DNA from: Novosphingobium barchaimii LL02
GTDB lineage: Bacteria; Pseudomonadota; Alphaproteobacteria; Sphingomonadales; Sphingomonadaceae
Assembly (NCBI RefSeq): GCF_001046635.1
Contig: NZ_KQ130455.1
Location: 418,477 to 482,476, forward strand
Length of the DNA stretch: 64,000 nucleotides
Reading direction: 5' to 3'
Shown: positions 6,601-64,000 of the stretch, one piece after another
Numbering within the stretch: the stretch's first letter is position 1
Layout of the letters: every line of letters starts with the position of its first letter
Notes under the pieces: generated by a model
Database searches by the model: none
What the model saw: only the letters and a program-made list of their open reading frames with translations
Told to the model about the DNA's origin: nothing
Program-made: the position numbers and the translations under genes

Positions 6601-6624
6601 ATTCAACACTCCTTTTTTGGATAA

Positions 6625-45127: not shown

Positions 45128-45135
45128 TAGGGGGG

Positions 45136-45387
45136 CTACCGGGCAGCGGCCCTCTCGGCCTTGAGCCGCTCGACCAGTTGTTCGATGTCGCCGGGATTAA
45201 GAATCCAGGTTCGGGTCTTGCGTCCTTCTACGAACACGGGCCGCGTCAGCAGGATGCGCGCTTGTTCCTTTGCGAAAGGCTTGAAGAGCGAGAAGTGCAT
45301 CACGCATTCAAGCATCACTCCGATTACCGGCGTTTTGCCATCCAGATCGATCAGCGTTGCGGGCTGGTCCCAGGGAATATTCATCAT
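45136..45387 (-). CDS. Small conserved-type protein, unknown function
   Basis: An 83-residue soluble protein (start M-M-N-I-P-W-D) with a beta-rich centre (ATLIDLDGKTPVIGVML) and a charged helical end (IEQLVERLKAERAAAR). The sequence is well structured and codon use is normal, so it is probably real. I recognise no domain. It is convergent with the HDAC-fold gene, with only eight bases between the stops, and lies 98 bases downstream of an SDR gene on the same strand. Confidence 0.6.
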   Translation of the reverse strand: MMNIPWDQPATLIDLDGKTPVIGVMLECVMHFSLFKPFAKEQARILLTRPVFVEGRKTRTWILNPGDIEQLVERLKAERAAAR

Positions 45388-45485
45388 GGATCGCGCCTAT
45401 CGCGGGTTGTGACGAATGCAAAGGCTGGATGCTCGACAAAGGCAGGCTTTACCAGCCGCGCCTCTACGCCCGGCGTGGGCTTGCT

Positions 45486-46226: not shown

Positions 46227-46384
46227 CTATCTTCACTCCCATAAATCGGTTTTCGGGCGGGTCCATTGGGACGGGCCGGGTTCACGGATTGCCTGTCAAC
46301 GGCTAAACTGCCCTGTTGGAAATTCGCCTGCGAAGGCGATAGCGGGTTGCGCAAAACCCAGCAGCGCGCGAGGAGGGGCGGCTC

Positions 46385-47128: not shown

Positions 47129-47129
47129 A

Positions 47130-48509: not shown

Positions 48510-50194
48510 ACGCGCGGCTTCGCGGAAGGATCGATCTTTCCATCGGCCTTGAAGCCGCGCAGCAGTTCGAACTTCTGGACCTTGGTGGCGCTCATCGGCC
48601 AGCTTTCCACGAAACGCACGTAGCGCGGGATTTTGTAGCTGGCGATGCGGCCCGCGCAGTGGGCAATAACGTCCTGCGTTTCAAGCGAGGCACCGGGATT
48701 CAGCTCGATGAATGCGGCAGCGACTTCCATCAGCCGTTCGTCGGGCACGCCGACGACCTGCGCCATGCGAATGGCGGGGTGCGTGGCGAGGAAGCTCTCC
48801 AGTTCCACCGCCGCGACGTTCTCGCCGCCGATCTTGAGCATGTCCTTGAGGCGGCCCTCGTAGACGAGGCGTCCCATCGGGCCGATGCGGCCCAGGTCGC
48901 CGGTGTGCAGCCAGTCGTCGGTATCGACGGCGGCGGCGGTGGCGACATCATCGTCGAAGTAGCCGGCGAACACGCCGAAGCCGCGCACGCGAATCTCGCC
49001 CGGCGCACCATCGGGCACCTTCACGCCGTCTTCATCGAAGATGGCGACGTCCATGCCCTCGCAGATCGGGCCGGACGTGGCGAACAGGACATCGTCGGGA
49101 TCGTCGATGTTGCTGTAACATGGAACGCCGGTGGCCTCGGTAAGGCCGTAGCTGTTGACGTACTTGGCGCCTGGAAACAGCGTCCCGTAGCGGCGCATCA
49201 GGTCTACCGGGCCGACGACGTGGTTGATGCGCAGCGCCGACTGGTCGTAGCGCGCGAAATCGGGATGGGTGACAAGCGCGGAGATGATCGTCGGGAAACC
49301 GGCGTAGTGCACGGTGGGGCTGCGCTCGATCAGCAGTTCCATCGCCGCGTCGGGGGAAAAGTGGCTCATGCCGACAAAGCAGGCGCCAGTCGCGCGGCAG
49401 CCTGCCATCGGCAGGATAGTGGACATGTGGAACAGCGGGAGCGGGTCCCACACCCTGTCTTCTTCGGTGAGGCGGAAGCTGCCCGCCATCGCCTTGCCCA
49501 TGCGCGAAAGCGAGAGGTGTGTGAGCATGCAGGCCTTGGGCCGCGAGGTGGTGCCCGAAGAGAAGATGATGAGGCCGATGTCCTCGGGGCGCACAGCGGC
49601 GGCGCGCTCCAGCACGGTCTGGCGGTCCACCGCGGCGGCCGCCTGTTCGAGCACGGCGATCGTAGGCCAGGGGCCGGGGCGATCGTCACCTACTTCGACG
49701 ATCATGCGCAGCGCCGGGGCCGCTGCCACCTTGAGTTCACCCCCGCTCCAGTCGGCAAGTTCGGGGAAGACTTCCGTCAGCATCGGGCGATAGTCGCAGA
49801 AGTCGTGGGCATGGCCGCCGACCAGCAGCAGTTCGATCCGCGACTTGGGGATCACGTAGGACAAATCGTCCGGCCGGTACCGCGCGTTCAGCAGAACCGC
49901 GCAGGCACCGACCAGATCGATCGCATAATAGAGGACCACGTAATCCCAGCAGTTGGGTGCCAGGATGCCCACATGATCGCCCGCCTTGACGCCGAGGCCG
50001 ATCAGGCCGCGCGCGCGCTCGATCACCTGCTCGAACAGCTCAGCATACGTCGCCTCCTGCCCGTCGTAGACCAGCGCGGGCCGGTCGGCGAAGCGCTTCG
50101 CTGCGGCCTGGAGTGTGCCCCCCACCGTCATCGGATGGGGGGCAGCATTGCCATCGGGTTCGAGAAGGGCGGTGTTGGCCACGGTGGTCTCCAT
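48506..50194 (-). CDS. AMP-binding acyl-CoA synthetase/ligase
   Basis: A 562-residue ANL-family ligase with IIFSSGTTSRPKACMLTH (P-loop-like), YVNSYGLTEATG, DDWLHTGDLGRI and the hinge RLKDMLKIGGENVAAVEL. The late Lys in MSATKVQKFEL is the catalytic residue. It activates a carboxylic acid to its CoA thioester. Following the P450, alcohol dehydrogenase and aldehyde dehydrogenase genes on the same strand, it would take the acid formed by them into a beta-oxidation-like route. It starts 11 bases downstream of the TonB receptor gene. Confidence 0.92.
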   Translation of the reverse strand: METTVANTALLEPDGNAAPHPMTVGGTLQAAAKRFADRPALVYDGQEATYAELFEQVIERARGLIGLGVKAGDHVGILAPNCWDYVVLYYAIDLVGACAVLLNARYRPDDLSYVIPKSRIELLLVGGHAHDFCDYRPMLTEVFPELADWSGGELKVAAAPALRMIVEVGDDRPGPWPTIAVLEQAAAAVDRQTVLERAAAVRPEDIGLIIFSSGTTSRPKACMLTHLSLSRMGKAMAGSFRLTEEDRVWDPLPLFHMSTILPMAGCRATGACFVGMSHFSPDAAMELLIERSPTVHYAGFPTIISALVTHPDFARYDQSALRINHVVGPVDLMRRYGTLFPGAKYVNSYGLTEATGVPCYSNIDDPDDVLFATSGPICEGMDVAIFDEDGVKVPDGAPGEIRVRGFGVFAGYFDDDVATAAAVDTDDWLHTGDLGRIGPMGRLVYEGRLKDMLKIGGENVAAVELESFLATHPAIRMAQVVGVPDERLMEVAAAFIELNPGASLETQDVIAHCAGRIASYKIPRYVRFVESWPMSATKVQKFELLRGFKADGKIDPSAKPRV

Positions 50195-50205
50195 TCTTGT
50201 CCGGT

Positions 50206-52710
50206 TCAGGGCATGCGCCAGGTCAGTTGCAAAGCCACGGTGCGCGGCATGGCGCCAAAGCCTGCCTGATCGGCAATGCGGTTGACATTGGTGCCCGTGC
50301 CGCTGCCGGTGCCAGCAGCGTCGGTGACGCCGGTGACCACGAACTTGTTGGTCAGGTTCTTCGCGAGCAGAGCCAGCTCCCAGCGCTCGTCGCTACTGCG
50401 GACGTGAATTTGCGCGTCGAGGTTCACGTAGGAGCCTTGACGGGACAGCGGCGAACCGAAGGCGGAGGTCAGGTAGCTGGAACTGTAGCGGCTATCGATA
50501 CCGAACCCGGCGGTGAAGCCGCTGGTGACCTCGGTGTCGTACTTGACGCCCAATGTTGCGGTCCAGCGCGGCGCGGTGAAGGTTGGCACGCCGTCCAGAT
50601 TCTGGCCCGGCGTTCCGGCACTGGCGCCCGAAGCCGGCACCAGCAGGCCGGGAACACAGCCGTCATTCAGCGACTGGCCGCCGTAGCACGGCGCGATCGT
50701 GTCACCGTAGTTGGCCTTGCTGTAGTTGAGCGAGCCGTTCAGCCCGAAGCCATGCAGCGCGCGGGGCTGGAAGTCGAACTCGACCTCGGCGCCGCGCGTC
50801 CGCGCGGAACCGGCGTTGACCGAATTGTAGCTGAGCGCGCGCGAATCGAGATAAGTGATCTGTAGGTCGGTGTACTTGTAGCTGTACAGGCTCAGATTCA
50901 GGCGCAGCTGGCGGTCCAGCAGCATCGTCTTCACACCGGCTTCGAAGCCTCGGCCCTTTTCGGGGGCGAAAGTGAAGAAGTCCGGCGCGGTCAGCGGCGT
51001 CAGGATCGAGCTGTTGGAGAAGCCGCCCGACTTGTAGGCGGTCTTGTACGCGCCGTAGACGTTGACGTCCGGCGATACTTTCCACGCGACGGTGGCTTCG
51101 GGCGACCAGTTGGTGAAGGTCTGGTTTGCCGTTACCCGGTCTGTGACGTTATAGTTGATCCCGGCGAAGCGCGGGTTCGCGTAAGGCTGGAAGAAGTCGC
51201 TGTCCTTGGTCTCATGGATGTAGCGCACGCCGCCGGTCAGCTCGACCGAGGGCACAACCTTCCAGATCACCTGGCCGTAGCCCGACAGGGTTTCGCCTTT
51301 GGTGGTCGATTCCTTGGCGTACTGGACGTAGCGGTAGCCTTCCGGCGCCGCGCTGTTTTCCGCGTTGGCGTTGATCACCACCTGGTCGAAGTTGCGCTTG
51401 GTGTTCTGGTAGTAGCCGCCGACCATGAAGTTGACCGGACTGTCGAATTCGGTCAGTGCGCGCAGTTCCTGGCTGAACGCTTTCCATTTGCTGATTTCGG
51501 CGCCCCAGATATTGACCGTCGGCGACGACTGGTAATCAATGTCCGCCACCCAGTGGTTGCGATTCTGATTGTAGTTGGTGATCGAGGTGAGCGCGACGTT
51601 GCCCAACTGGTAGTCGATGTTTCCGGTGACACCCCACGAGGTGTACTTGTTGAAGTTCTTGTCGGCAGCCATCACCGTCGCGTCGGCGATGTCTGCGGGC
51701 AGGTCGTTCATGTAATTGTGAAAGCCCGGCTCGCACGCCGTTCCCGGCATGGTCGTGCTGGTGCCGCCGTCGCAGGCGAAGACGTTGTAGTTCCACGCAC
51801 CGCCTGCCGTGCGGTTGTAGCCGTAGTTGGCTTTCAGCGTTGCAGTCAGGTCGTCGACCGGTTCCCAGCGCAAGGTGCCGCGCACCAGGAAATCGCGCTC
51901 ACGCGGGCCGGACTTGCTGGCGGGCGCAACGTGAGGGGTATTGGGCGCGACGGTGGTGGCGGTCGGCGTATCGCGAGTGTTGTAGGTCACGTCACCAGCG
52001 CGATTGGTGAATAGCGAGCCGTAATCCTTCGACCCACGAACGGCGACGCGAAAGCCGGCCGTGTCGCCGATCGGACCCGAGACGAAGCCTTCGCCGTAGA
52101 CCTTGCGCGCGTTGAATTCGTAGCCGGTCCGGATTTGCGCCGTCAGGTGGTCTGTCGGGTTCGCGGTGGTGATGGAAATCACGCCGGCGGTGGCATTCTT
52201 GCCGAAGAACAGGGACTGCGGGCCCTTGAGAATTTCCATGGAAGCGAGGTCGAAGAAGCCCTCGTTGATGGTGCGGCCCTGGCCATAATAGACGCCGTCG
52301 ACGATCACCGCGACGGACTGTTCCATGCCGATCGACAGCGAGTTCGAGCCGATGCCGCGCAAGCTAAGCTGCGCGCCTGAACCCGAGACGTTGCGGCCGA
52401 TGACCAGCTGCGGGGTGGCGGCGGCAATGCGCTCGAGGCTGGTGAGGTCACGGCGGGCAATGTCCTCGCCCGAGATGACGGTCACGGCGACCGGTACATC
52501 CTGCGCGGATTCCGCGCGGCGGCGGGCGGTAACGATGATGTCGTTGCCAGTGGGAACCGCTTCCCGTGCCTGTGGGGGCTGCTGCGGAGCGGGACCTTCC
52601 TGCGCGTGCAGAGCGGCGCCTGGCCACATTGCGGGCAGGAGAATGCTTCCGGTCACGAGGAGCGTGCGGCGAATCCGCGAACGACGGGTATCGGTTTTGC
52701 CGATCGGCAT
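50206..52710 (-). CDS. TonB-dependent outer-membrane receptor
   Basis: An 834-residue receptor. The signal peptide (RRTLLVTGSILLPAMWPGAA) ends near ALHAQEG, and NDIIVTARRRAES is the TonB-box region. The plug has LSLRGIGSNSLSIGMEQSVA and MEILKGPQSLFFGKNATAG, where KGPQSLFFG varies from the usual RGPQGTLFG. The barrel ends VALQLTWRMP with a terminal Pro instead of an aromatic residue. It belongs to the P450/alcohol-oxidation region and precedes the CoA ligase gene, so it may import the hydrophobic compound oxidised there. Confidence 0.93.
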   Translation of the reverse strand: MPIGKTDTRRSRIRRTLLVTGSILLPAMWPGAALHAQEGPAPQQPPQAREAVPTGNDIIVTARRRAESAQDVPVAVTVISGEDIARRDLTSLERIAAATPQLVIGRNVSGSGAQLSLRGIGSNSLSIGMEQSVAVIVDGVYYGQGRTINEGFFDLASMEILKGPQSLFFGKNATAGVISITTANPTDHLTAQIRTGYEFNARKVYGEGFVSGPIGDTAGFRVAVRGSKDYGSLFTNRAGDVTYNTRDTPTATTVAPNTPHVAPASKSGPRERDFLVRGTLRWEPVDDLTATLKANYGYNRTAGGAWNYNVFACDGGTSTTMPGTACEPGFHNYMNDLPADIADATVMAADKNFNKYTSWGVTGNIDYQLGNVALTSITNYNQNRNHWVADIDYQSSPTVNIWGAEISKWKAFSQELRALTEFDSPVNFMVGGYYQNTKRNFDQVVINANAENSAAPEGYRYVQYAKESTTKGETLSGYGQVIWKVVPSVELTGGVRYIHETKDSDFFQPYANPRFAGINYNVTDRVTANQTFTNWSPEATVAWKVSPDVNVYGAYKTAYKSGGFSNSSILTPLTAPDFFTFAPEKGRGFEAGVKTMLLDRQLRLNLSLYSYKYTDLQITYLDSRALSYNSVNAGSARTRGAEVEFDFQPRALHGFGLNGSLNYSKANYGDTIAPCYGGQSLNDGCVPGLLVPASGASAGTPGQNLDGVPTFTAPRWTATLGVKYDTEVTSGFTAGFGIDSRYSSSYLTSAFGSPLSRQGSYVNLDAQIHVRSSDERWELALLAKNLTNKFVVTGVTDAAGTGSGTGTNVNRIADQAGFGAMPRTVALQLTWRMP

Positions 52711-52932
52711 GGCTTGTGATCCTCTCCACCAATTAGCGCCCTTATGCTGGACGCTTTCTTTGGCTCGTGCCGCTTTCGGCCCGAGGGAACGGTATTATCT
52801 CGGGATTATTCTAAGGCAAGTGACTTTTATAATTTCGCTGCGATTGGCGGGAAAATCCCCGGAATCCGGTCGTAATGGCACGCCCGCCTGCGGTACGTCA
52901 GGCCTATCAGTGCTTAAAAGTAAGCGAATCGC

Positions 52933-53772
52933 TTATTCGACTTCGCGCGCGGAACGCGCCCATTCGCGGCCGTCGTCGGATGCGACCCACCGCAAGGCGT
53001 TACCTACAAGTTGACGGTAGGTCGGGTCCGCATAGGTGGCCGGGCTGTCGCCGGGCTGGATATAGACCAGGGGACTGTTGCCGGCGGGCTTGGCCCAGGC
53101 GAGCAGCGGATTGAGCGCTTCGGGCACCCACGGGGCGCCTTCGCCGTCCGCCAGTCGTTGGACCGCGCGCCGGGCCGACTGAAATCGCGCGGGGTCGATC
53201 GTGTCGTCCAGATAGAGCAGCGGCTGGATGGAAGGATCCTCGAACACCTGCTGCAGGTAGAGTTCATCGGTCAGCGCAAAACGCGGCGGCAGCCCTTGCG
53301 TCACGGGATGCGGCGTATCGGCCACACGCGCCGTATAGGCGACGTCGGCCAGATAGCCCGAGCCCGGCCGGGCCTCGCCCCCGATAACGGCATCGCGGTA
53401 CAGGAATTGCCCGCCGATCGCCTGCGCATAGCGTGGCCAGGCGGGCCATCCTGCGGCGGCATGATGCAGCATGACCATGCCCTTGCCCTCGGCCATCAGG
53501 GCTTCGAAACCGGCCCTGAACGCGTCCGTCGGCTCGGCGAAGCCCGGGCGTTCGGCGATGGGCGCGCGAAAATCGAGGCCCGGCATGTCGTAGAACAGGA
53601 TCGCGTCGTAGCGGCGCATCTGTTCGGGATTGAGCAGGACGGCGGCGGCGGGTTGATCCACCATCGTCGGCTCACTGCCCGCCGCGCGCAGCATCGCCTC
53701 CAATCCGTCGCGCGAAAAGGCGTGACCTTTGGTGACGACGAAAAGCTCGATGCGGTCTTCCTTGCGGATCAT
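52933..53772 (-). CDS. ThuA-like protein (glutamine-amidotransferase fold)
   Basis: A 279-residue ThuA-family protein with FVVTKGHAFSRDGLEAML at the start, DAILFYDMPGLDF, GKGMVMLHHAAAGWPAWP, and HPVTQGLPPRFALTDELY. The fold is that of class I glutamine amidotransferases, but the nucleophile Cys is replaced (LHHAAAG), as usual in ThuA proteins. ThuA was linked to trehalose/sugar use in rhizobia; the biochemical role is unsettled. It lies eight bases after the P450 gene, so it is co-transcribed with it. Confidence 0.85.
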   Translation of the reverse strand: MIRKEDRIELFVVTKGHAFSRDGLEAMLRAAGSEPTMVDQPAAAVLLNPEQMRRYDAILFYDMPGLDFRAPIAERPGFAEPTDAFRAGFEALMAEGKGMVMLHHAAAGWPAWPRYAQAIGGQFLYRDAVIGGEARPGSGYLADVAYTARVADTPHPVTQGLPPRFALTDELYLQQVFEDPSIQPLLYLDDTIDPARFQSARRAVQRLADGEGAPWVPEALNPLLAWAKPAGNSPLVYIQPGDSPATYADPTYRQLVGNALRWVASDDGREWARSAREVE

Positions 53773-53780
53773 GCGGGTTC

Positions 53781-55043
53781 TCAGCGCGTTCTGGCGCGGA
53801 AGCGGATCGGCAGTTCGCGCAAGGGAAGGGTCAGGAAGTTGGCGCGATGGATCGGTTCAACGAGCGGACGGGCAAGCTCGATATCCTCCAACCGATCAAG
53901 GATCGCCTGGGTGCCGATGGCGATTTCCTGCCGCGCCAGCACCGCGCCGACGCAGAAATGGGTGCCGGCCCCGAAGGCGAGGTGAGTTCCGGCATTGCCG
54001 CGCTCCATGTCGAACATGTGCGGGCAGGCGAACTTCGCCGGATCGCGGTTAGCCGCGCCATACCGCACGATCACCACCGAACCTTCCGGGATGAGCGTGC
54101 CGCTCAGTTCAACGTCTCGGGTGGTGCGCCGGCGCAGGCCCTGCGTCGGGCTTTCGAAGCGGATGACTTCCTCGACGAAGCCCTTCATCCGCTTGGGCTC
54201 CTCGCGCAGCTTGGCCATCTGGTCCGGGTGGTTCAGCAACTGCATCAGCGCGTGGCCGATCGAGGTCATCGTCGATTCGAAGCCGCCGCCGATCAGTTGG
54301 CTCATCACGCTTTGTAGCTCCGCCATCGTCAGCGGTTCCTCGCCGTCACGCTGCGCGGTGACGAGGGCGGAAATCCAGTCGCCCGTAGGGTTGGCGCGGC
54401 GCTCGTCGAACAGGCGACCAAGGTGATGCTGTGCTTCCAGTTCGATGTCGGCATTACGCAGCAGCGCGTCCTCGTCCATCACGTAGGACGCAGGCGCGAG
54501 CATCGAATCCGCCCACTTCTTGAATGTGGCGACTTGGCCTGCCGGCAGACCCATCTCTTCGGCCAGGATCGTACCGGGCAGCAGCATTGCATATTCGCTG
54601 ATGAACTCGCACTCGCCGCGATCGATGAAACCGTCGATCAGGGCGTGGGCAACCTCCTCGATATGCGGGGTCATCTCGCGCACCCGCCCGACCGTGAACA
54701 CGCGGTCTACGAGACGGCGGTAGCGGGCGTGGTCGGGCGCATCGGTGCGCTGGAGCGTGGCGATATGCGGCCAGCCCTTCGCCTCCATATATTCGCGCAG
54801 CCTGGCCGCATTCTCCGGACCCTGCAGTGATGCCCGGTCCACCTTGTTCGAAAATGTCACCGGATCGGTCAGCACCGCGCGCAGGTCGGCATAGCGCGAG
54901 ACGATGTAGAATCCCGTTTCAGGCATCCGATAGATGCCGGGCGCGTCCTGCATTGCCTCATACATGGCGAAAGGGTCGCTCTGCGTCGTTGGATCGAGAA
55001 GGCTGAAGCCTTCCAGCTTTTCCCTGGCGTCGAGGTCGGCCAT
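53781..55043 (-). CDS. Cytochrome P450
   Basis: A 420-residue soluble bacterial P450 that inserts one oxygen atom into an organic substrate. The I-helix oxygen-binding region is IGGGFESTMTSIGHAL, giving G-G-x-E-S in place of the commoner A-G-x-E/D-T. The K-helix reads EEVIRFESP, and the haem loop is LAFGAGTHFCVGAVLARQE with the axial Cys near residue 364. I prefer the ATG at 55043 because GGGAG stands 10 bases before it; another ATG lies six codons upstream. No ferredoxin or ferredoxin reductase gene is near, so electrons must come from elsewhere. The next genes in the ladder are a PQQ alcohol dehydrogenase and an aldehyde dehydrogenase. Confidence 0.93.
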   Translation of the reverse strand: MADLDAREKLEGFSLLDPTTQSDPFAMYEAMQDAPGIYRMPETGFYIVSRYADLRAVLTDPVTFSNKVDRASLQGPENAARLREYMEAKGWPHIATLQRTDAPDHARYRRLVDRVFTVGRVREMTPHIEEVAHALIDGFIDRGECEFISEYAMLLPGTILAEEMGLPAGQVATFKKWADSMLAPASYVMDEDALLRNADIELEAQHHLGRLFDERRANPTGDWISALVTAQRDGEEPLTMAELQSVMSQLIGGGFESTMTSIGHALMQLLNHPDQMAKLREEPKRMKGFVEEVIRFESPTQGLRRRTTRDVELSGTLIPEGSVVIVRYGAANRDPAKFACPHMFDMERGNAGTHLAFGAGTHFCVGAVLARQEIAIGTQAILDRLEDIELARPLVEPIHRANFLTLPLRELPIRFRARTR

Positions 55044-55170
55044 TGCTTGTCCATCTCCCATATGTCTTTGCGCTTATTATTAACGCATCTGCCTTATAAA
55101 TGAAGCGCCAGTCTAGCGTTTGTCACAGGTCGGAGGATTTTTTCGGAGGAAATGGCAGGCAGGCGCCTGA

Positions 55171-57303
55171 TTATGGCTCGCCCTTCGCCTTAGCCTCGCG
55201 GGCGCGGGCATTGAGGTAGGCGCGGATCGCTTCGGCATCCTGCGGCGTCAGGTATCTGCTGAAGGACACCATGCCCTGATCGGCGAGCACGCCGTCGATC
55301 ACGACCTGCCGGAACACCCTGGCATCTCCGATCGCGCCCGAGCGGCGCAGATCCGGCAGTACCCCGGAGGACAGCCCTTCCGAGCCGTGGCATACCGCGC
55401 AGGTGGCGGAGAACAGGTGCGACCCCCGCGCGACCTGTTGCGCCGAGAATCTCTCGGCCGAAGGCGCATAGGGCGGCGGCGGCGCCTTCTCGCGCGCGGG
55501 CAGCTTTGCGGTGCCGCCCAGTCTGAATGCCAGGATGCGGCCTGGCACCCGAGCCTGGGGTGCGGCGTAGCTGGGCATCGCCAGGTTGTAAGCGCCGCCC
55601 TTACCCGCCATCACCGCGACGTACTGTGCGCCGTTGACCCTGTAAGATACCGGGCCTGCCATGATCGGCTCCTGCGCATCGAACTGCCAGCGCTGCTCGC
55701 CGCTGCGCGCATCGTAGCTGTGGAAGGTGCCTTCGGCGTCGCCCTGGAACACCAGGTCGCCGCCAGTCGCCAGCACGCCGCCGTTCCATGGCCCCTTGTA
55801 GGGCGCACGCCACACTTCCTTGCGCGCCACCGGGTCCCACGCGATCAGACGCCCTTCGAATGACTGCAGCATCGCTTCTATCGCCGCCTTGTCCTTGGGC
55901 AAATTGCCCGGCTCGGCAAGGCCCATGTTGAGCAGGCCGGGGCGGTATTTGAATGCGCCGTCGGGCGTGTAGACTGCGGGGATTTGCTGCGCCGGGATGT
56001 AGACGAGCCCGGTCTGCGATGAAAACGCCATCGGGTGCCAGTTATGCGCACCCCACGGCCCCGAGGTGGCGATGAAGTTGCCCGACTTGTCGTAACGGGC
56101 CCGCGGGTCGATGACTGGTCGCCCGGTCTTGAGGTCGACGCGGTCCGCCCAGTTCACCGGCACGTACTTGTCGGCGGAGAGAGGCTTTCCGGTCTCCCGG
56201 TCAATCACGTAGAAGAAGCCGTTCTTGGGCGCGTGGAGGATGACCTTGCGGCTGCGTCCGCCGATGGTAAGGTCGGCCAGTGTCATTTGCTGGGTCGAGG
56301 TGAAATCCCACTGATCGCCCGGCGTCTCCTGATAATGCCACAGGTATTTGCCGGTATCGGGATCGAGCGCGACGATCGAACCGATGAAAAGGTTGTCGCC
56401 CTTGCCGGCGGAACGGATGCCTCGGTTCCACGGGCCGCCGTTGCCGACGCCGATGTAGAGGCGGTTCATCGCCGCATCGTAGACGATCGAGTCCCATACG
56501 GTGCCGCCCCCGCCGATCGTCCACCACTCGCCCGCCCAGGTCGGTCCGGCCATGCGTTCGAGCACGTCGTCGGACGCCGCGCCGTCCTTTTCGCCGGGCT
56601 TGCCGGGGACGGTGTAGAAGCGCCAGGCAAGCCGCCCGGTCTTCTCGTCGTAGGCCGAGACATAGCCGCGCATGCCCTGGTCGGCGCCGCCAAAGCCGAT
56701 GAACACCTTGCCCCTGGCTACGCGCGGCGCGCCCGAGATCGCCATTGGTTGCTTGGGATCGGTGGTCTGCACTCGCCAGATCTGCTTGCCGGTCCGGGCG
56801 TCGAGTGCGATCAGGCGGCCGTCCACGGTGCCGAAGAAGAGCCGCCCGTCGCTATAGGCCGCGCCCCGGTTGACGACGTCGCAGCAGGCATGGATTGCGC
56901 TGTCGCCCGGCACCTTGGGATCGAATTCCCACAACCGCTTGCCGGTCGCCGCATCAAGCGCGACGACCTTGCTCCACGCGGTGGTGGCATACATCACCCC
57001 GTCGACCACCAGCGGCGTGCCTTCCTGCCCCCGGAACGTGTCCAGATCGGCATACCAGGCAAGGCCCAGTTGCCCGGCATTCCCGCCGTTGATCTGGGTG
57101 AGGGGGGAAAAGCGCGTCTCGTCGTAAGTGCGCCCGTGGCTCAGCCAGTTGTCGGCGTCCCTGGTCGCCGACAGCAGCCGGGCGTCGCTCTTGTTCACAT
57201 CGGCGCGCTCGGCCCGGCACCCGGCCAGAGCCAGGGCGAGCGTTAGCGTGCACGAAAGGGCTGCGCCGACGTTGCGGCGCGAAACTGCGATCCCGATGGT
57301 CAC
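55171..57303 (-). CDS. PQQ-dependent quinohaemoprotein alcohol dehydrogenase (lipoprotein)
   Basis: A 710-residue periplasmic enzyme that oxidises alcohols and passes electrons to cytochrome c. The N-terminus has a lipobox (LALAGC, Cys29). The eight-bladed propeller shows repeated A-x-D-x-x-T-G-K-x-x-W docking motifs (ALDAATGKRLWEF, ALDARTGKQIWRV, ALDPDTGKYLWHY), the vicinal Cys pair in IHACCDVVNRG, and GAHNWHPMAF. A C-terminal cytochrome c domain carries CAVCH near residues 633-637 and a Met in GMVSFSRYL as a likely second ligand. It starts with GTG, AAGGG upstream, two bases after the aldehyde dehydrogenase stop. It would oxidise the alcohol produced by the P450. Confidence 0.93.
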   Translation of the reverse strand: MTIGIAVSRRNVGAALSCTLTLALALAGCRAERADVNKSDARLLSATRDADNWLSHGRTYDETRFSPLTQINGGNAGQLGLAWYADLDTFRGQEGTPLVVDGVMYATTAWSKVVALDAATGKRLWEFDPKVPGDSAIHACCDVVNRGAAYSDGRLFFGTVDGRLIALDARTGKQIWRVQTTDPKQPMAISGAPRVARGKVFIGFGGADQGMRGYVSAYDEKTGRLAWRFYTVPGKPGEKDGAASDDVLERMAGPTWAGEWWTIGGGGTVWDSIVYDAAMNRLYIGVGNGGPWNRGIRSAGKGDNLFIGSIVALDPDTGKYLWHYQETPGDQWDFTSTQQMTLADLTIGGRSRKVILHAPKNGFFYVIDRETGKPLSADKYVPVNWADRVDLKTGRPVIDPRARYDKSGNFIATSGPWGAHNWHPMAFSSQTGLVYIPAQQIPAVYTPDGAFKYRPGLLNMGLAEPGNLPKDKAAIEAMLQSFEGRLIAWDPVARKEVWRAPYKGPWNGGVLATGGDLVFQGDAEGTFHSYDARSGEQRWQFDAQEPIMAGPVSYRVNGAQYVAVMAGKGGAYNLAMPSYAAPQARVPGRILAFRLGGTAKLPAREKAPPPPYAPSAERFSAQQVARGSHLFSATCAVCHGSEGLSSGVLPDLRRSGAIGDARVFRQVVIDGVLADQGMVSFSRYLTPQDAEAIRAYLNARAREAKAKGEP

Positions 57304-57305
57304 GT

Positions 57306-58367
57306 TCAACCCTTGAGATAGACGAAGACGGACTTGGTTTCCTGATAGGCGCGGATGCCGTCCTCGGCGTTCTCGCGGCCCCAGCCCGATTCCTTGTATC
57401 CTCCGAACGGCATCGCCGGGTGCATCATGCCGTAGCCGTTGATCCACACGTTGCCCGCCTGCAGTCGCGCGGCGGTGAGGTGCGCCTTGTTGACGTCGGA
57501 CGTGTAGATTCCGGCGCCAAGCCCGTAGCGGGTGTCGTTCGCGGCCTGCACGAGGTCGTCGATGTCATCCACCGGTGTCGCGACCAGAACCGGGCCGAAG
57601 ATTTCCTCGCGCACGATGCGCATGTCCTTGTTGACGTTGGCGAACACCGTCGGCTCGATGTAGTAGCCCTGGTTACCCACCGCGCTGCCGCCGGTCACGA
57701 CATGCGCCCCTTCCGACACGCCGGTTTCCAGATAGCGGGCTACCTTGTCACGCTGGCCTTCGGAAATCAGGGGGCCGATCGCATTGTCGGGATCGAAGCC
57801 GTGGCCGATTTTGAGGCCCTTGGCGAAGTCGGTGATGCCCGCGACCACCTTGTCGAAGGACTTCTTCTGCACGAACAGGCGCGATCCGGCGAAGCAGACC
57901 TGGCCGGTATTGGCGAAGATGCCCATCGCGGCGCCAGGGATGGTCACTTCGGGATCGGCATCGTCGAACACGATCACCGGCGACTTGCCCCCCAGTTCCA
58001 GCGTCACGCGCTTGAGCGTCTCGGCGGCGGACTGGACGATTTTCTTACCGGTGGCGGTGGAGCCGGTGAAGCTGATCTTGTCCACCTGCGGGTGATCCAC
58101 CAGCGCCTGGCCGGCCGTGGCGCCAAAGCCCGGCACGATGTTTACGACGCCTGCGGGAATGCCCGCTTCGACCATCAGGTTGGCGGCGTAGAGCGCCGAG
58201 AGCGGGGTCAGTTCGGCGGGCTTGACGACCACCGAGCAGCCGGCCGCCAGGGCAGGCGCCAGCTTGATCATCATCACCCCGATAGGGCCGTTCCACGGGA
58301 TGATCGTGCCGACCACTCCCACCGGCTCGACGCTGGTATAGGCGTGCATCTTGAGCGCATCGCTAGC
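57306..58367 (-). pseudogene. Aldehyde dehydrogenase, cut off at its 5' end by a transposon
   Basis: The visible 353 residues start inside the protein at SDALKMHAYTSVEPVGVVG and run to the normal end (AYQETKSVFVYLKG). They include TIIPWNGPIGVMM, FTGSTATGKK, the general base in LELGGKSP and the catalytic Cys in TGQVCFAGSR. About 130-140 N-terminal residues, part of the cofactor domain, are missing. The break is exactly where the transposon's TGTAGGCG end begins. The catalytic residues are intact, but the gene has lost its promoter and start. It was the first gene of the alcohol dehydrogenase/P450 unit, so the insertion may also affect those genes. Confidence 0.9.
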
Positions 58368-58505
58368 TGTAGGCGCTTGCAACCGTAGCAGCTTCTGCTC
58401 GCAAACAGCGCCTTTTCCTGCCCAGATTACCTGACAACGAGCCGACTATGCTGCTCACGCTATCCGACAATGTGCTCGCCATCATCCGCGTCTGCTCGCA
58501 AACGG
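58368..58505 (+). repeat. Left terminal inverted repeat, 138 bp
   Basis: It aligns without gaps to the reverse complement of 63863-64000. Identity is concentrated in three blocks: the outer 15 bp (one mismatch), an 18-bp block TCTGCTCGCAAACAGCGC (no mismatch), and the inner 58 bp at 58448-58505 (two mismatches). CTGCTCGCAAAC occurs twice, at 58395 and 58492, and is the likely transposase-binding motif. Confidence 0.9.
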
Positions 58506-58546
58506 CAAAGGGCCGCTCATGGTATCTGCCAACTACAAAGTCGAGA

Positions 58547-58999
58547 TTAGCAGTCATTTGCTGATGCGCGATGCTCACGCAGCTTTGTGGAACCCAAGAT
58601 CAGAAAGTACACGATGGGGCAAACCACCATCAGCATCACTGCTGGATCGGTAGCCCATCTCGTTGGGCCATCGCTGTCCGGCTCACTTGCTACCGCGAGC
58701 ATGAGCGCGATTGATCCTCGCACAGCGGCGTAGGTGGCAGGAACAAGCAGGATGTGGAGAAGCCACCCGTAGCGGAACCGCATGGCGCCAAACCAGCAGA
58801 GTACAGCTATGGCGGGTGGAGCGAGTGTGGCGGCTACGAAGCCGCAGAACCAAATGGCAAACCCTGCCGGAGTCAGCGTATCGCGATAGTAGCTGGCGAT
58901 CCCATCCGGTCGCAATCCGAGAGCGACGAAAGAGCCTGCGACGACAACGGCACCCAAAGCCGTCAGTCCGACGCCACGCAATGTCCCGTGTCTCGGCAT
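58547..58999 (-). CDS. Transposon cargo: four-helix membrane protein, unknown function
   Basis: About 150 residues with four hydrophobic segments (near residues 9-28, 44-70, 72-100 and 122-142). The loops are short, and the C-terminus is charged and soluble (STKLREHRASANDC). No known motif is visible. The chosen ATG begins MPRHGTLRG, 28 bases after the stop of the gene before it on the same strand; the frame is open 25 codons further up and would overlap that gene. The two genes form a cargo operon inside the transposon. The function is unknown; a partner role for the larger protein is inferred only from linkage. Confidence 0.6.
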   Translation of the reverse strand: MPRHGTLRGVGLTALGAVVVAGSFVALGLRPDGIASYYRDTLTPAGFAIWFCGFVAATLAPPAIAVLCWFGAMRFRYGWLLHILLVPATYAAVRGSIALMLAVASEPDSDGPTRWATDPAVMLMVVCPIVYFLILGSTKLREHRASANDC

Positions 59000-59027
59000 C
59001 AATCTATGCAATCCAGTAAGCCATTGA

Positions 59028-59720
59028 TCAGGCTGCTCGCACTTTGGCTCGGAAGAAGGTCGTTTCCGACCCAATCAGATCGGGGTCGATCCCGCTCTCC
59101 TCGGCGGCCAGTTGCTGGATGATCCGCCAAATCTCGGGGGCGGTGAGGCGCGCGCCGTCGCGGGCAAGCCTGCCACGGTTCTGCTCCGTGACCAGTCGGG
59201 CGAGATCGCCGATAGTGTCGCACCTCCGAGGTAATCGCCGGCGGTCGAGGTGCCGTAACCATAGCCCCGCGTAGGCGCTCGCTCCAGCAGCGAAGATGCG
59301 AAGGGGAGGTGCCAGCGTCGTGAAGGCGAGGATCGCGACCGCGACAGCGAAGCAGAGACCACTGACAATCCCAAGCCATCCGGCTCGCGTCGCCGGCATC
59401 TTGAGGTCGGTATCGGCTTCCAGGTCGCTGAACGCTTGGCGCAGCTTCCCACCGATCAGCGGCGCCAACGGCGCATCCGGCCCGACGTGCCGGCCAAGCC
59501 CGAGCGCGCGTCGAAGCCTGTAGAACGTCATCTGCGTGGCGCATGTCGTGCCGCCCCCGCTGTAGGCTGCGACATGCGCGACGACATGGTCACGCACCTC
59601 GCCGAACGTTGTCCAAGGCAGGTTCGAGCGCAGGCGCAGATCGAAGGTGCGCTCGATTGCGAGGAAGAAGTCGGTGTCGTCGCCATCACCGACCCAGCCA
59701 ACCGTATCGAGCACCTGCAT
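59028..59720 (-). CDS. Transposon cargo: membrane protein with two acyl-carrier-like segments
   Basis: A 230-residue protein. Residues about 10-50 (GDGDDTDFFLAIERTF...TTFGEVRDHVVAHV) follow the helix pattern of acyl carrier proteins of the DUF1493 style, with Asp where the carrier Ser would be expected. Two adjacent membrane helices lie near 114-145. The C-terminal part (PEIWRIIQQLAAEESGIDPD, IGSETTFF) looks like the first helix and loop of another carrier domain and then ends abruptly. These resemblances are my inference; no phosphopantetheine site (DSL-type) is visible. It is the first gene of a two-gene cargo operon. Confidence 0.6.
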   Translation of the reverse strand: MQVLDTVGWVGDGDDTDFFLAIERTFDLRLRSNLPWTTFGEVRDHVVAHVAAYSGGGTTCATQMTFYRLRRALGLGRHVGPDAPLAPLIGGKLRQAFSDLEADTDLKMPATRAGWLGIVSGLCFAVAVAILAFTTLAPPLRIFAAGASAYAGLWLRHLDRRRLPRRCDTIGDLARLVTEQNRGRLARDGARLTAPEIWRIIQQLAAEESGIDPDLIGSETTFFRAKVRAA

Positions 59721-59734
59721 GAACCCGGCTCCTC

Positions 59735-59860
59735 AGCGGTTCTGCAAAACGACCGTTTCTGACGAGCCGATCGCCTTGCTGGGCCGGCAACGTAAATCTG
59801 CGGGCCGCACTTTGTCAAAACTGTTCTGGAAACCCGCGTCGCAAAACGGTATGCCCCGCA
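59735..59860. promoter_or_regulatory. Candidate resolution (res) site of the transposon
   Basis: Between the cargo operon and the resolvase gene lie three related short motifs: GCAAAACGACCGTTT, GTCAAAACTGTTC and GCAAAACGGTATGC. Spaced inverted half-sites of this kind in front of a resolvase gene are what a res site looks like. Promoters for both divergent transcripts must also be here. This is an inference from position and repetition. Confidence 0.4.
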
Positions 59861-59885
59861 CGAGTTTGGAGAAGATCAGACGCTC

Positions 59886-60482
59886 ATGCGGGTCGGCTAT
59901 GCCAGGGTCAGCACCAGCGACCAGAACCCCGAGCTCCAGCTCGATGCGCTGCGGCGGGCCGGCTGCGAGCGGGTGTTCACCGAAAAGGCGTCGGGCGCGC
60001 GCGATGACCGGCCCGAACTGGCGCGCATTCTGGAAGACGTGCTGCGCGCAGGCGACACGCTGGTTGTTTGGAAGCTCGACCGCCTCGCCCGCTCGCTCAA
60101 GAAGTTGATCGCCACGGCCGAGGATCTGGAGCGCGAGAAGATCGGGCTGGTGTCGCTGACCGAGAGCATCGACACGACAACGCCGGGTGGCATGCTCACC
60201 TTTCACGTGTTCGGCGCCATCGCGCAGTTCGAGCGTGCCCTGATCCGCGAGCGAACTACCGCGGGGCTAGTGGAGGCGCGCCGGCAGGGTCGCAAGGGTG
60301 GCCGCCCATCGGCAATGCGCCCGAGCGACGTCGCCGCGGCACGGGCGATGATGAAGGAGGGCACGTTGCCGGTGCGCGACATCGCCAAGCGCATGGGCGT
60401 GTCGGTCGCGACCCTCTATCGCTATGCAGGCAAGCGCGGCAGCGGTGCATCGATCAAGGAGGCTGCAACAGCCCATGGCTGA
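59886..60482 (+). CDS. Serine recombinase/resolvase
   Basis: A 198-residue resolvase-invertase family protein. The N-terminal catalytic domain begins MRVGYARVSTSDQ, with the nucleophile Ser9. It continues with KLDRLARSLKKLI (Arg residues of the active site), GGMLTFHVFGAIAQFERALIRERT and a C-terminal helix-turn-helix RDIAKRMGVSVATLYRYA. It resolves cointegrates formed when the element moves by replication. Its stop codon overlaps the transposase start by eight bases, so the two are coupled. Confidence 0.93.
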   Translation: MRVGYARVSTSDQNPELQLDALRRAGCERVFTEKASGARDDRPELARILEDVLRAGDTLVVWKLDRLARSLKKLIATAEDLEREKIGLVSLTESIDTTTPGGMLTFHVFGAIAQFERALIRERTTAGLVEARRQGRKGGRPSAMRPSDVAAARAMMKEGTLPVRDIAKRMGVSVATLYRYAGKRGSGASIKEAATAHG

Positions 60483-62127
60483 CCGGGCGAAGCGACCGCC
60501 TGGAGAGGCGCTGATCGATCTTCGCCGACGGTTGTCGCTGTTGCCCCCACGCGACCCCGGTCGCACCGAGATCATCGCCCGTGCGGCCGAGGCCTATGGC
60601 ATCTCCATCTGGACCCTTTACCGGGCGTTGCGCGAGCTGAACCGCCCCAAGTCGGTGCGCCGGTCCGACCATGGTGCGACGCGGGTTGCCCCGCAGGCCG
60701 AGATGGAGCGCTACGCCGAGATCGTCGCCGCACTGAAGATCAGGACCACCAACAAGAAGGGCCGGCACGTTTCGACCGCCCGCGCCATCGAGTTCCTGGA
60801 AACCGATGGCGTCGAGACGCCGGAGGGCCTGGTCAAGGTAGCACCCGGCCTGCTGAAGCGGGCGACCATCGACCGGCTGCTCCGCTCATCAGGGCTGGAC
60901 TATGCCCGCGTGACCCGCCCCCACGCAGCCGTTCGTTTTCAGGCGCGGCGATCCAACGAGCTGTGGCACTTCGACATGAGCCCGTCCGACCTCAAGCAGG
61001 TCGAGGCGCCGCTCTGGATCGAGCAGGGTCGCGGCAAACCCACGCTGATGCTGTTCTCGGCCGTCGATGACTGCTCGGGCGTGGTCTACCAGGAATATCG
61101 CAGCGTCTATGGCGAGGATGCCGAGTCCGCGCTGCGCTTTCTATTCAACGCCTTCGCCGCCAAGCCTGAGCCCGAACTGCCGTTCCAGGGCCTGCCGGTC
61201 ACGATCTACATGGACAACGGCCCGGTCAGCCGGTCGCGCGTGTTCCAGTCGGTGATGGGCAGCCTCGGCGTGCGCGTCCTCACCCATCTGCCGCCGAAGG
61301 CCGACGACCGGCACACCGCGGCCCGCGCCAAGGGCAAGGTCGAGCGGCCGTTCCGCACGGTGAAGGAGGTGCACGAGACGTTGTACCACTTCCACAAACC
61401 CAAGGACGAGGCGGAAGCCAATCTGTGGATGCGGCGTGCGCTGGTCACCTACAACAACGGCGACCATCGTTCCGAGCCACACGCGCGGATCGAGCACTGG
61501 CTGCGGCACCTGCCCGGCGATGGCGTGCGGGCCATGTGTTCATGGGAGCGGTTCTGCGCCTTCGCTCGTGAGCCCGAGCGGCGCACCGTTGCGGGCGACG
61601 CGACCGTCTCGGTTGAGGGCGCTTCCTACGAGGTCGAGCCCGAGCTCGCCGGCGAGACGGTGACGCTGCTCTGGGGGCTGTTCGACCAGCAGCTCTTCGT
61701 GGAGCATGACGGCAAGCGGCATGGCCCTTACGAGCCGTCGCGCGGCGCCGTGCCGCTCTACCGCTATCGCAAGTATCAGAAGAGCCGCGCCGAGGAGCGG
61801 CTCGACAAGGTGGTCCGGCTCGCTGACCAGCTGGGGCTGCCCCGCGCGACCGTGACGGGCGGCGACCGGCCGCTGCCGTCGCTGCCGCCCTCCACCGCAG
61901 GGCTCGCGGTGCGGCAAACACCTTTTCCGGAGCCGGCGGTCGAGACGGCATACCCGACCGGGCTCGCGGCGCGCCACGCCATCGTCGACCAGCTCCGGCG
62001 ACCGCTCGGCTCGCTGCCTGAGGCAGACCGCGCCTTCATCGACGCGCTGCTGGGCGAAACGCTCGACAAGACCATCATCGCTGACCGCATCCGAGAGCGG
62101 TTCCAGTCAAGACGGGGGACAAGCTGA
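60475..62127 (+). CDS. DDE (rve-type) transposase with Mu-like C-terminal domain
   Basis: A 550-residue transposase. An N-terminal helix-turn-helix region (YGISIWTLYRALRELNRP) binds the ends. The integrase core has the catalytic triad Asp167 in WHFDMSPSD, Asp247 in TIYMDNGPV and Glu290 in KGKVERPFRTVKE. A Mu-transposase C-terminal-like beta-barrel follows (VEGASYEVEPELAGETVTLLWG), then a basic tail for contact with the ATPase. A strong AAGGAGG ribosome-binding site lies inside the resolvase gene. It is the strand-cutting enzyme of the element. Confidence 0.93.
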   Translation: MADRAKRPPGEALIDLRRRLSLLPPRDPGRTEIIARAAEAYGISIWTLYRALRELNRPKSVRRSDHGATRVAPQAEMERYAEIVAALKIRTTNKKGRHVSTARAIEFLETDGVETPEGLVKVAPGLLKRATIDRLLRSSGLDYARVTRPHAAVRFQARRSNELWHFDMSPSDLKQVEAPLWIEQGRGKPTLMLFSAVDDCSGVVYQEYRSVYGEDAESALRFLFNAFAAKPEPELPFQGLPVTIYMDNGPVSRSRVFQSVMGSLGVRVLTHLPPKADDRHTAARAKGKVERPFRTVKEVHETLYHFHKPKDEAEANLWMRRALVTYNNGDHRSEPHARIEHWLRHLPGDGVRAMCSWERFCAFAREPERRTVAGDATVSVEGASYEVEPELAGETVTLLWGLFDQQLFVEHDGKRHGPYEPSRGAVPLYRYRKYQKSRAEERLDKVVRLADQLGLPRATVTGGDRPLPSLPPSTAGLAVRQTPFPEPAVETAYPTGLAARHAIVDQLRRPLGSLPEADRAFIDALLGETLDKTIIADRIRERFQSRRGTS

Positions 62128-63104
62128 TGCTCGCCGACGTTCAATCCAGCTACGGGCTCGCCCGCCCGTTCCAAGGCGTCGGCAACTTCGAGACAGAGCA
62201 TCAGCGCAACCTCGTGCGCGAGGTCTGTGCGGCCGTGCAGACCGGCAGGTTGATCGTCGTCTCCGGCCTGGTCGGATCGGGCAAGACGCACCTGCTGCGC
62301 CGCATCGAGGACGAGCTGGCCCGGGCGGGCAAGGTCGCCGTCGCCAAGTCGCTTGCGGTCGACAAGCGCCGCACCTCGTTGCCCTCGCTGATCGAGGCGC
62401 TGTTCTACGATCTCTCGCCCGGTGACCGTGCCCAGGTGAAGATTCCCAAGCAGGCCGAGCGCCGCGAGCGCGACCTGCGCGACATCATGCGCAAGGGCAA
62501 GCGCCCGGTCGTACTGGTGGTCGACGAGGCGCATGACCTGCACCACAAGACGCTGACCGGCCTCAAGCGGTTGATGGAGGTGGTGGCTGATGCCGGCGTG
62601 CTGCTGTCGGTCCTTCTGGTCGGCCATCCTCGGCTACGCAACGACCTGCGCCGCCCGCAAATGGAAGAGATCGGCTACCGCACGACCACCTTCGACTATG
62701 AGGGCATCGGCGCCGAACGCCGCGACTATGTTGCCTGGCTGCTCGGCGCCTGTGCGGCCGAGGGGGTCAAGGTTGCCGACTTGATGAACGAGGACGCGAT
62801 CGACCTCATCGCCGAGCGCCTGCGCACCCCGCTCCAGATCGAGATGCACCTGACACTCGCCTTCGAGCAGGGCTTCCGCTTCGCTGCCAAGCCCGTCACG
62901 GCCGAGATCGTCGAGCAGGTGCTGTCGCGGGCGATTGACGACCTCGAACCCACGCTGACGCGCAACGGTTACGATGCGGGCGCGCTCGCCAGCCAGCTCA
63001 ACACCCGGCCGTCCGACATACGCGCGTTCCTCGCCGGAACGCTGGACGCCGAACACACCCGCGACCTGACCGAGCGGCTCCGCGAAGCCGGTGTGCCGAT
63101 ATGA
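62127..63104 (+). CDS. AAA+ ATPase, transposition partner (TniB/TnsC/ExeA-like)
   Basis: A 325-residue ATPase with Walker A VSGLVGSGKTHL near residue 46, Walker B VVLVVDEAHDL near residue 130, a sensor-like LLSVLLVGHPRLRNDL and a helical C-terminal lid. In this class of elements the ATPase chooses the target DNA and activates the transposase. Its ATG overlaps the transposase stop codon by one base (TGATG), so the two proteins are made together. Confidence 0.93.
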   Translation: MLADVQSSYGLARPFQGVGNFETEHQRNLVREVCAAVQTGRLIVVSGLVGSGKTHLLRRIEDELARAGKVAVAKSLAVDKRRTSLPSLIEALFYDLSPGDRAQVKIPKQAERRERDLRDIMRKGKRPVVLVVDEAHDLHHKTLTGLKRLMEVVADAGVLLSVLLVGHPRLRNDLRRPQMEEIGYRTTTFDYEGIGAERRDYVAWLLGACAAEGVKVADLMNEDAIDLIAERLRTPLQIEMHLTLAFEQGFRFAAKPVTAEIVEQVLSRAIDDLEPTLTRNGYDAGALASQLNTRPSDIRAFLAGTLDAEHTRDLTERLREAGVPI

Positions 63105-63204
63105 TACTGGCTGTCCTCGCCTTGGTATCTCCCGCACGCGGACGCAACGCATGTCGTCTGTGCCACCGATTGTGGACGTTGCGCTTCTCTCATAGCCTGC
63201 CGGC

Positions 63205-63774
63205 ATGAACAGGCATCTTACCGCAGCTTCTTTATCGATCGTCAGCTTGCTCAGCGCGTGCTCGGCCTCGGCCGAGAGGAGGTTGGAGGGACGAGTCTTC
63301 GACATCCCGAGAGCCAACGACATATCCGACAATGATAAGCCGTTCTTTCTACCAGCGCTCGATCCCAGCGACGGGTTCTCGTTCTACCTAAATCCGAGCG
63401 CAAGCTTGCCGGAGCGAAACTTGGTGGGCGTGGCAAGCAAGAAGCGGATGTGTGCCCGCGCAGCGGGAACAGAGGCGCTTGTCAACTCGACTGTCTGCGC
63501 AAGTCGCCCGCTTTCATGGCGCGGCCGAACACTGCGCAAGGTAAGTGATGGTGTTTTCTGGACATACCAGTTGCCAGCCGAAGCAGGTCAGAAGCGTCCT
63601 CCATCGCTGGCGAGTTGCTCCGCCATGGGCGGAGGCTCGCGGCCGGGGCTCTGCACGGCCAATCTGCCGTATGACAATCTCGTGCTGACGATTCACTTCC
63701 GAGACAATCAGGTCGGCTCGCTCCAGGCATTATACGATCAATCCGTTGCTAGCCTGAGGAAGTGGGAGCGCTGA
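63205..63774 (+). CDS. Transposon cargo: lipoprotein, unknown function
   Basis: A 189-residue protein with a lipoprotein signal (SLLSACSAS, Cys19), so it is anchored at the periplasmic face of a membrane. The mature part has few repeats and at least five further Cys residues (CARAAG, VCASRP, ASCSAM, LCTANL), which suggests disulfides. The motif PFFLPALDPSDGFSFYLNP is distinctive, but I cannot tie it to a named family. It lies alone between the ATPase gene and the right end. A self-protection or immunity-like role is possible but is only inferred from its place on a mobile element. Confidence 0.65.
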   Translation: MNRHLTAASLSIVSLLSACSASAERRLEGRVFDIPRANDISDNDKPFFLPALDPSDGFSFYLNPSASLPERNLVGVASKKRMCARAAGTEALVNSTVCASRPLSWRGRTLRKVSDGVFWTYQLPAEAGQKRPPSLASCSAMGGGSRPGLCTANLPYDNLVLTIHFRDNQVGSLQALYDQSVASLRKWER

Positions 63775-63862
63775 TGCTTACGGCAAACCCGGCGGGAACG
63801 ATCGCTGCCAGACCGCTCACCGGCACTCCTCGCTATTGGCAGAAAGCGAGAACAGGCCTTCT

Positions 63863-64000
63863 CCGTTTGCGAGCAGGCGCGGATGATGGCGAGCACATTG
63901 TCGCATAGCGTGAGCAGCATGGCCCACCTGCTGTCAGCAAATCTGAGCAGAAATCCGCGCTGTTTGCGAGCAGAGGCCAGTATCTTTGCAATCGCCTACA
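63863..64000 (-). repeat. Right terminal inverted repeat, 138 bp
   Basis: This is the counterpart of the left repeat and ends with the final base of the window (reading TTGCAATCGCCTACA). It carries the CTGCTCGCAAAC motif twice on the minus strand, at about 63863-63876 and 63960-63973. Confidence 0.9.

Follow-up and report, generated by a model that had tools for sequence, protein, structure and literature searches.

Relation to described transposons

Canonical IS481 elements are short insertion sequences (IS) that have a single gene flanked by short terminal repeats. Transposons of the Tn402/Tn5053 group carry TniQ, have 25-base-pair (bp) repeats and generate a 5-bp duplication, and Tn7-like elements are known for their TnsA and TnsD/TniQ genes and a fixed attachment site. 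A resolvase with a res site is typical of the replicative Tn3 and Tn402 families. Here we analysed a stretch of 64,000 nucleotides (nt) from Novosphingobium barchaimii LL02 (contig NZ_KQ130455.1, positions 418,477 to 482,476), hereafter the window, in which positions 58368-64000 constitute a complete transposon of 5,633 bp, with inverted ends, a three-gene module (resolvase, transposase and ATPase) and three cargo genes. We consider it quite probable that this is a complete IS481-like transposon of the ISAzs36 type that also encodes a helper ATPase and a resolvase and carries interchangeable cargo, and that it is probably replicative. The sequence basis of this reading comprises the ends, the module, 6-bp duplications, a TA rule at the target, a res-like site, cargo exchange and identical copies at multiple sites. 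Replicative movement, the ATPase role and resolution are expected by analogy with families that have the same parts, and array binding is likewise presumed.

The nearest named relative that we found was ISAzs36 of Azospirillum sp. B510 (L051), compared through the Azospirillum annotation ('IS481-like element ISAzs36') and not through its ISfinder entry. It shares with the window element the order and orientation of the resolvase, transposase and ATPase genes, the transposases being 62% and the ATPases 54% identical, and its ends were found (7e-32) by a family end profile made from 37 ends, which had been collected with a profile of the window's ends. It differs in its resolvase (only 41% identical), in its own flanks, which show no duplication, and in an insertion of ISAzs10. 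The Hyphomicrobiales phosphite elements (e.g. in Pannonibacter p.p-1) have a module with 83-90% protein identity, the same ends and the duplication TGTAGC, but differ from the window element in cargo. ISArsp14 (Arthrobacter pA2H2) resembles it in the recombinase-transposase-ATPase order, in the presence of passenger genes and in a resolvase of 39% identity, whereas the transposases are only 24% identical over 146 amino acids (aa; E 2e-5) and the ATPase comparison was not significant. ISArsp14 is assigned to ISNCY, and its tabulated ends and duplication differ from those of the window family (PMC6305408).

In comparison with canonical IS481, the window element has the three-gene module and 165-bp ends instead. 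With Tn402/Tn5053 it has in common a DDE transposase, an AAA+ partner and a resolvase; however, there was no clear sequence match to the single TniA compared. In contrast to Tn7-like elements, the window element has no TnsA, TnsD or TniQ genes, and the target sites are varied. TGT/ACA ends are common to Tn7-like and IS481 elements (PMC11406308). TnRErm46 uses the target NCTAGN, 6 bp with a central TA (PMC6794481). IS481 and TnRErm46 are similar to the window family in the 6-bp target with central TA, the TGT terminus and the possibility of cargo, whereas TnRErm46 differs from the window element in its 20-nt terminal repeat and in its seven described open reading frames (ORFs) without a resolvase (PMC6794481).

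A profile of the family transposases, whose E-values refer to a small set of ten reference proteins, gave as best references two IS481-like sphingomonad transposases bearing Mu-transpos_C (1.9e-10 and 1.9e-8), followed by the sole protein above the IS481 cut-off (2.8e-4), an IS481-like protein (0.012) and TniA (0.028). Judged by these comparisons, the window element is not a canonical IS481, Tn402 or Tn7 element; it is a member of the ISAzs36 type, a kind known but hardly described in the literature searched. Neither the element nor the end structure of its group was described in that literature, most subscription papers and ISfinder being outside the search. It is possible, and we propose it only tentatively, that the ISAzs36 type is a separate lineage that reached a Tn402/Tn7-like plan from an IS481-like core. 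Such a lineage would be characterized by 165-bp ends that are symmetric and hold six to seven transposase sites, by strict use of NNTANN as target, by the lack of a TniQ-type target selector, by two slots carrying a phosphite operon, peptide export or effector-like genes, and by its occurrence in alpha- and gammaproteobacteria.

Ends and insertion site

The boundaries of the element and its insertion site are defined by the following features.

58368..58532, plus strand: left end, 165-nt inverted repeat with TGT terminus and array of TGCTC-type motifs
63836..64000, minus strand: right end, 165-nt inverted repeat with ACA terminus
58362..58367, no strand: GCTAGC, the target site and presumably the left-hand copy of the 6-bp duplication; fits NNTANN
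57306..58367, minus strand: aldehyde dehydrogenase gene, outside the element (PF00171, profile positions 117-461 only)

The first bases of the element are TGTAGGCG and the last are CGCCTACA. The two arms of 165 nt were identical at 132/165 positions (80% complementary); when 165-mers of the window were paired at random 200 times, the maximum was 62/165. The left neighbour was 89% identical over its last 567 bases to the aldehyde dehydrogenase gene of Novosphingobium resinovorum pSA1, which is intact (497 aa), and since this homology ends exactly at 58367, just before TGTAGG, the left boundary is independently fixed. The insertion cuts the aldehyde dehydrogenase gene, whose 5' part would fall outside the window. 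For the left flank at 45000-58367, the nearest match in the plasmid collection was from N. resinovorum (82% over 85%).

The preliminary description of this DNA, which proposed a complete transposon at 58368-64000 with inverted ends, module and cargo, is borne out, its left boundary now being fixed from outside. The structured inverted ends were also recognized correctly, but the 138 bp assigned to them was too short, as the arms measure 165 nt. The coupling of resolvase, transposase and ATPase agrees with our results as well: the three families were confirmed and the genes overlap on one strand.

Within the ends, a TGCTC/TGCTT motif recurs at end columns 29, 52, 85, 106 and 126 in 30-34 of the 37 ends, and at column 146 or 147 in 28 of them. 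This array suggests several putative transposase sites per end. The TGT start of all 37 ends is partly a matter of choice, because an end was picked only if its match to the profile started at profile position 1 or 2. Rfam gave zero matches at gathering score over 57000-64000; the promoter scan revealed no promoter-like site and the terminator scan only a chance-level count.

The resolvase-transposase-ATPase module

59886..60482, plus strand: serine resolvase, 198 aa (PF00239 3e-45, HTH_7)
60475..62127, plus strand: DDE transposase, 550 aa (D167, D247, E290)
62127..63104, plus strand: AAA+ ATPase helper, 325 aa (AAA_22 4e-17; Walker A at residue 50, Walker B at 131)

The module genes are co-oriented, with overlaps of eight bases between resolvase and transposase and of one base between transposase and ATPase. 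The best NCBIfam model for the transposase was IS481 (3e-19). Its Pfam match to rve (1.7e-5) and a weak match to PF22483 (Mu-transpos_C_2, E 0.004) were both under the cut-off, and PF09299 (Mu-transpos_C) gave no match in the Pfam search of the element. The acidic triad was kept in 10/10 aligned family members and the Walker motifs of the ATPase in 9/9. No TniQ-, TnsA- or TnsD-like gene was present among the six element genes, as judged from the ORF list and the Pfam search; a TnsD match to the helix-turn-helix part of the resolvase was far under the cut-off (12.2 vs 32.4 bits). A search of solved structures by sequence gave nothing useful for the transposase or the ATPase.

Identical copies and relatives

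Full-length copies were found in 4/41 matching plasmid records, from Sphingobium sp. MI1205 (two plasmids), Sphingobium sp. TKS and S. indicum B90A. When copies were excised by their ends and compared, all eight, which come from six Sphingobium strains, had zero differences from the window over 5,633 bp (8/8): S. ummariense RL-3 (two), S. arseniciresistens, S. quisquiliarum P25, MI1205 (two), TKS and B90A. These identical copies, found in several soil bacteria, occupy different sites. Such perfect identity across Sphingobium strains, which include known pesticide degraders, suggests that the element has spread recently on plasmids. Shortened copies are present in MM-1 pISP4 and UT26S pUT1, where an IS6100 gene adjoins the break. 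In an even draw of 385 genomes at the class level, the transposase was matched at E<=1e-30 in 2, one being S. ummariense itself; thus, within this sample of the class the element is rare. No relative was found in the viral contigs searched.

We collected 54 related loci, 39 from a genome scan and 15 from plasmid records. All three module genes lay in the same locus in 47 of them (the others being L021, L035, L036, L037, L039, L047 and L048), although some of the resolvase matches in these 47 are partial and in L029 the resolvase match and the transposase are 2.8 kb apart. With a profile made only from the two ends of the window, ends were detected in 40 of the 48 loci collected by that stage, and the profile rebuilt from the 37 distinct ends detected one or both in 48/54. 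Three cargo-free relatives, L024, L025 and L027 (3,722, 3,749 and 3,739 bp), consist only of the ends, resolvase, transposase and ATPase.

Target site and duplications

A perfect 6-bp repeat was found in 11 of the 23 distinct flank pairs, the systematic search being confined to this length. TA occupied flank positions 3-4 in 70/70 flanks scored, the window's GCTAGC counted, against a TA background of 2.2%; these flanks are partly dependent, as L047 repeats the L043 junction, L002 repeats the right junction of L041, and L040 has one flank in common with L041 and one with L043. The commonest neighbours were C at position 2 (36/70) and G at position 5 (28/70), and since they occur in only part of the 70 flanks, CTAG is not obligatory. 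The 24 flanks beyond the 23 pairs came from dropped pairs, single-ended loci and the window. Pairs were dropped when they repeated a site (L042, same as L041), had one base of right flank (L006) or lay at contig ends (L003, L005, L034). We also dropped L011, with a damaged right end and no TA in the bases past the assigned end, and L038, in which the left boundary was wrongly set and the preceding bases had no TA at positions 3-4. Duplications of 6 bp are reported for most IS481 members in ISfinder (PMC10045372), and duplications of IS elements are known to be lost through recombination and adjacent deletion (PMC11708052).

The copy on pMI1, which has no repeat, combines a left flank as in pTK6/pSRL3 with a right flank as in pMI3, whose own copy is flanked by the repeat GCTACA. 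This mixture fits what recombination between copies, or cointegrate resolution between different molecules, would leave. The copies on pMI1, pMI3 and pTK6 (L040, L043 and L041, respectively) swap flanks, and because of this exchange the element may help plasmids to recombine. We also noticed that the flanks of L026, CTTAGG and CCTAAG, are mutual reverse complements, possibly a trace of inversion and possibly chance. In Sphingobium ummariense, the contigs of L003 and L005 are broken precisely where the element ends, and the GCTAGG flanks of L005 and L001 resemble two sides of one insertion.

The res-like site

59741..59875, no strand: res-like site, which relatives also have ahead of the resolvase in conserved form; its outer limits were placed by eye
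59747-59762: subsite I
59811-59830: subsite II
59839-59873: subsite III

Subsites were counted in the sequences preceding the resolvase gene (30 distinct regions), with mononucleotide shuffles as controls; the counts express conservation and not an independent prediction, since the patterns were read from the same alignment. Subsite I was present in 25/30 regions at a median of 139 bp upstream (range 128-142; shuffles 0.5%), the exceptions being L018, L029, L033, L038 and L052. Subsite II was present in 23/30 at 75 bp upstream (range 71-79; shuffles 0.1%) and was missed in the same five loci and in L032 and L054. The two parts of subsite III, IIIa and IIIb, were found in 20/30 (shuffles 7%) and 27/30 (shuffles 19%), respectively. 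The res-like site is situated between the divergent cargo 1 and resolvase genes, and because of this position the resolvase may control both of them.

Cargo of the element and of its relatives

Cargo of the relatives was named by annotation or Pfam. The 8,892-bp element of Pannonibacter p.p-1 (L050) carries phnCDE, a phosphonate dehydrogenase and a LysR regulator; the same phosphite-type cargo is present in L046 (Agrobacterium pAtCFBP6623b), and L034 has frames with equal beginnings and lengths. L012, L017 and L022 are elements of the identical length of 8,892 bp, their cargo not being annotated gene by gene. A phosphite/phosphonate operon rides on this sister transposon, and elements of that length lie at different target sites in several Hyphomicrobiales hosts. 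Elsewhere we found a GNAT acetyltransferase in L010 and, in L011, an ABC exporter of the C39 type together with HlyD-like and aspartyl-protease-like genes. L049 (Serratia) carries a Tle1-like lipase and an S66 peptidase, L051 a toxin of the VapC family along with a plasmid stabilization gene, and L006 fatty acid desaturase-like and SRPBCC-like genes beside cargo 1. In L023 (Erwinia mallotivora), a YopJ-family acetyltransferase (5932-6987; PF03421 1e-79) lies between the left end and the resolvase, and the element is flanked by a 6-bp duplication. Since the cargo differs between relatives while the module stays, the cargo of the window is best regarded as a passenger. The same engine in relatives moves phosphite use, peptide export and effector-like genes, and looks like a general-purpose gene shuttle.

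The window element itself carries three cargo genes.

59028..59720, minus strand: cargo 1, 230 aa; acyl-carrier-like N-terminal region without evident serine, then a hydrophobic hairpin
58547..58999, minus strand: cargo 2, membrane protein with multiple transmembrane segments, 150 aa per the pMI1 annotation; the ORF reaches 59074
63205..63774, plus strand: cargo 3, 189 aa; lipoprotein-like (lipobox-like) start

None of the three matched a Pfam family at E<=1 or a PADLOC family at E<=0.1, and NCBIfam gave only two meaningless matches (E 0.06 and 0.096). We also considered a role in defence; PADLOC on five element proteins (resolvase left out) gave only generic ATPase matches, and the idea was therefore dropped.

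Cargo 1 occurs in four related elements, at 84-90% identity, without detectable cargo 2 or 3. In a family-level even draw of 298 genomes it was matched in 31 at E<=0.001. Two of these contain the element itself and seven contain nearly full-length homologues (26-30% identity in the alignment) in unrelated gene contexts; the remaining 22 matches were short and weak and were left uncounted. PP-binding was matched at E<=1 by 6/12 cargo 1 members (best 0.0029), the window's copy not among them, and the alignment has no evident serine typical of a phosphopantetheine site. The AlphaFold model (mean predicted local distance difference test score, pLDDT, 76) is mostly helical, with a long helical hairpin. 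Cargo 2 (150-175 aa) has several hydrophobic segments and was found in plasmid records, to which its search was confined, only at >=99% identity (10 records). Cargo 3 was matched in 8/298 genomes, two through the element itself, one by a 69% homologue with a broken frame and others at about 26-41% identity. The contexts of its homologues gave no support to an immunity lipoprotein, and its AlphaFold model was poor (mean pLDDT 48) and not used.

The earlier view that the cargo lacks a recognizable function and is membrane-associated thus agrees with the family searches and with the hairpin, the hydrophobic segments and the lipobox-like start. The question it raised, whether the cargo travels with the module or varies, is answered by variation. 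No named transposon with this cargo was found, ISfinder being outside the search. However, to call the locus an undescribed system was too strong: close relatives are annotated in plasmid records, ISAzs36 is a named relative and the cargo varies. The relatives, for their part, retain the ends in 48 of the 54 loci, contrary to the possibility that related copies would lack them. For a group labelled only 'IS481 family transposase' in the records, the ends are now clear and a target rule and a res-like site are available, which allows automatic calling of complete units together with their cargo.

Proposed mechanism and alternative explanations

In the mechanism that we propose, the transposase would bind the short sites arrayed along each of the symmetric 165-bp ends, cut at TGT/ACA and join the ends to the target across a stagger of 6 bp with TA at its centre. 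The ATPase would select or activate the target, as thought for TniB, TnsC, MuB and IstB. Joining would probably be replicative and yield a cointegrate, which the resolvase would split at the res-like site ahead of its own gene. The interchangeable cargo occupies two slots, one between the left end and res and the other between the ATPase gene and the right end.

Several points weigh against this reading. Transposition, cointegrate and resolution were not observed, and the support comes from sequence. A duplication is missing in 12 of the 23 flank pairs, and the last base of the window is the last base of the element, its own right flank and the right copy of the duplication lying outside. No end was detected in 6/54 loci (L007, L014, L015, L016, L019 and L054), in L007 despite about 8 kb on each side. 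The IS481 score of the transposase was 69.5 bits against a curated cut-off of 224. The IIIa and IIIb patterns are short and weak, and all res patterns were derived from the alignment in which they were counted.

Could the locus instead be a Tn402/Tn5053-type transposon, with TniA, TniB, TniQ and TniR? The logic of DDE transposase, AAA+ partner, resolvase and TGT/ACA ends is the same, and the weak PF22483 match is in line with it. Nevertheless, we regard this as very unlikely, as no TniQ-like gene is found among the element genes, the duplications are 6 bp and not 5 bp, the family profile barely detects the single TniA compared (E 0.028 and 0.017) and PF09299 is not matched. Even less credible is an ordinary IS481 insertion sequence next to which resolvase and ATPase genes came to lie by chance; the best NCBIfam model and the record labels do name IS481, but the score stays under the cut-off of that model, the trio recurs in 47/54 loci and the minimal relatives hold all three genes between their ends.

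The same transposon might alternatively move by cut-and-paste, the resolvase serving only host-plasmid dimers or regulation. Our data hold no direct evidence of replication, and the flank pairs without duplication would be compatible with such movement; however, a conserved resolvase with a three-part res-like site is typical of replicative elements, and one strain holds identical copies at two places, which makes cut-and-paste unlikely in our view. A different question is whether the cargo forms a coherent, co-selected system, e.g. for envelope lipid modification. All three products look membrane-associated, and the acyl-carrier-like cargo 1 stands beside the desaturase-like and SRPBCC-like genes in L006. 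We find this rather improbable, given that cargo 1 occurs without the other two in the four related elements, that the non-transposon homologues of cargo 1 and 3 lie in unrelated contexts, and that cargo 1 has no evident phosphopantetheine-type serine.

Related transposases in other arrangements

In Novosphingobium EMRT-2 (L044:4838-7078), the N-terminal part of the resolvase and the transposase share one 746-aa frame. Of the 828 plasmid records with a transposase match, 391 are from Salmonella; the listed ones among them match at about 54%, and in most of these the annotation places an ExeA family protein next to the transposase.

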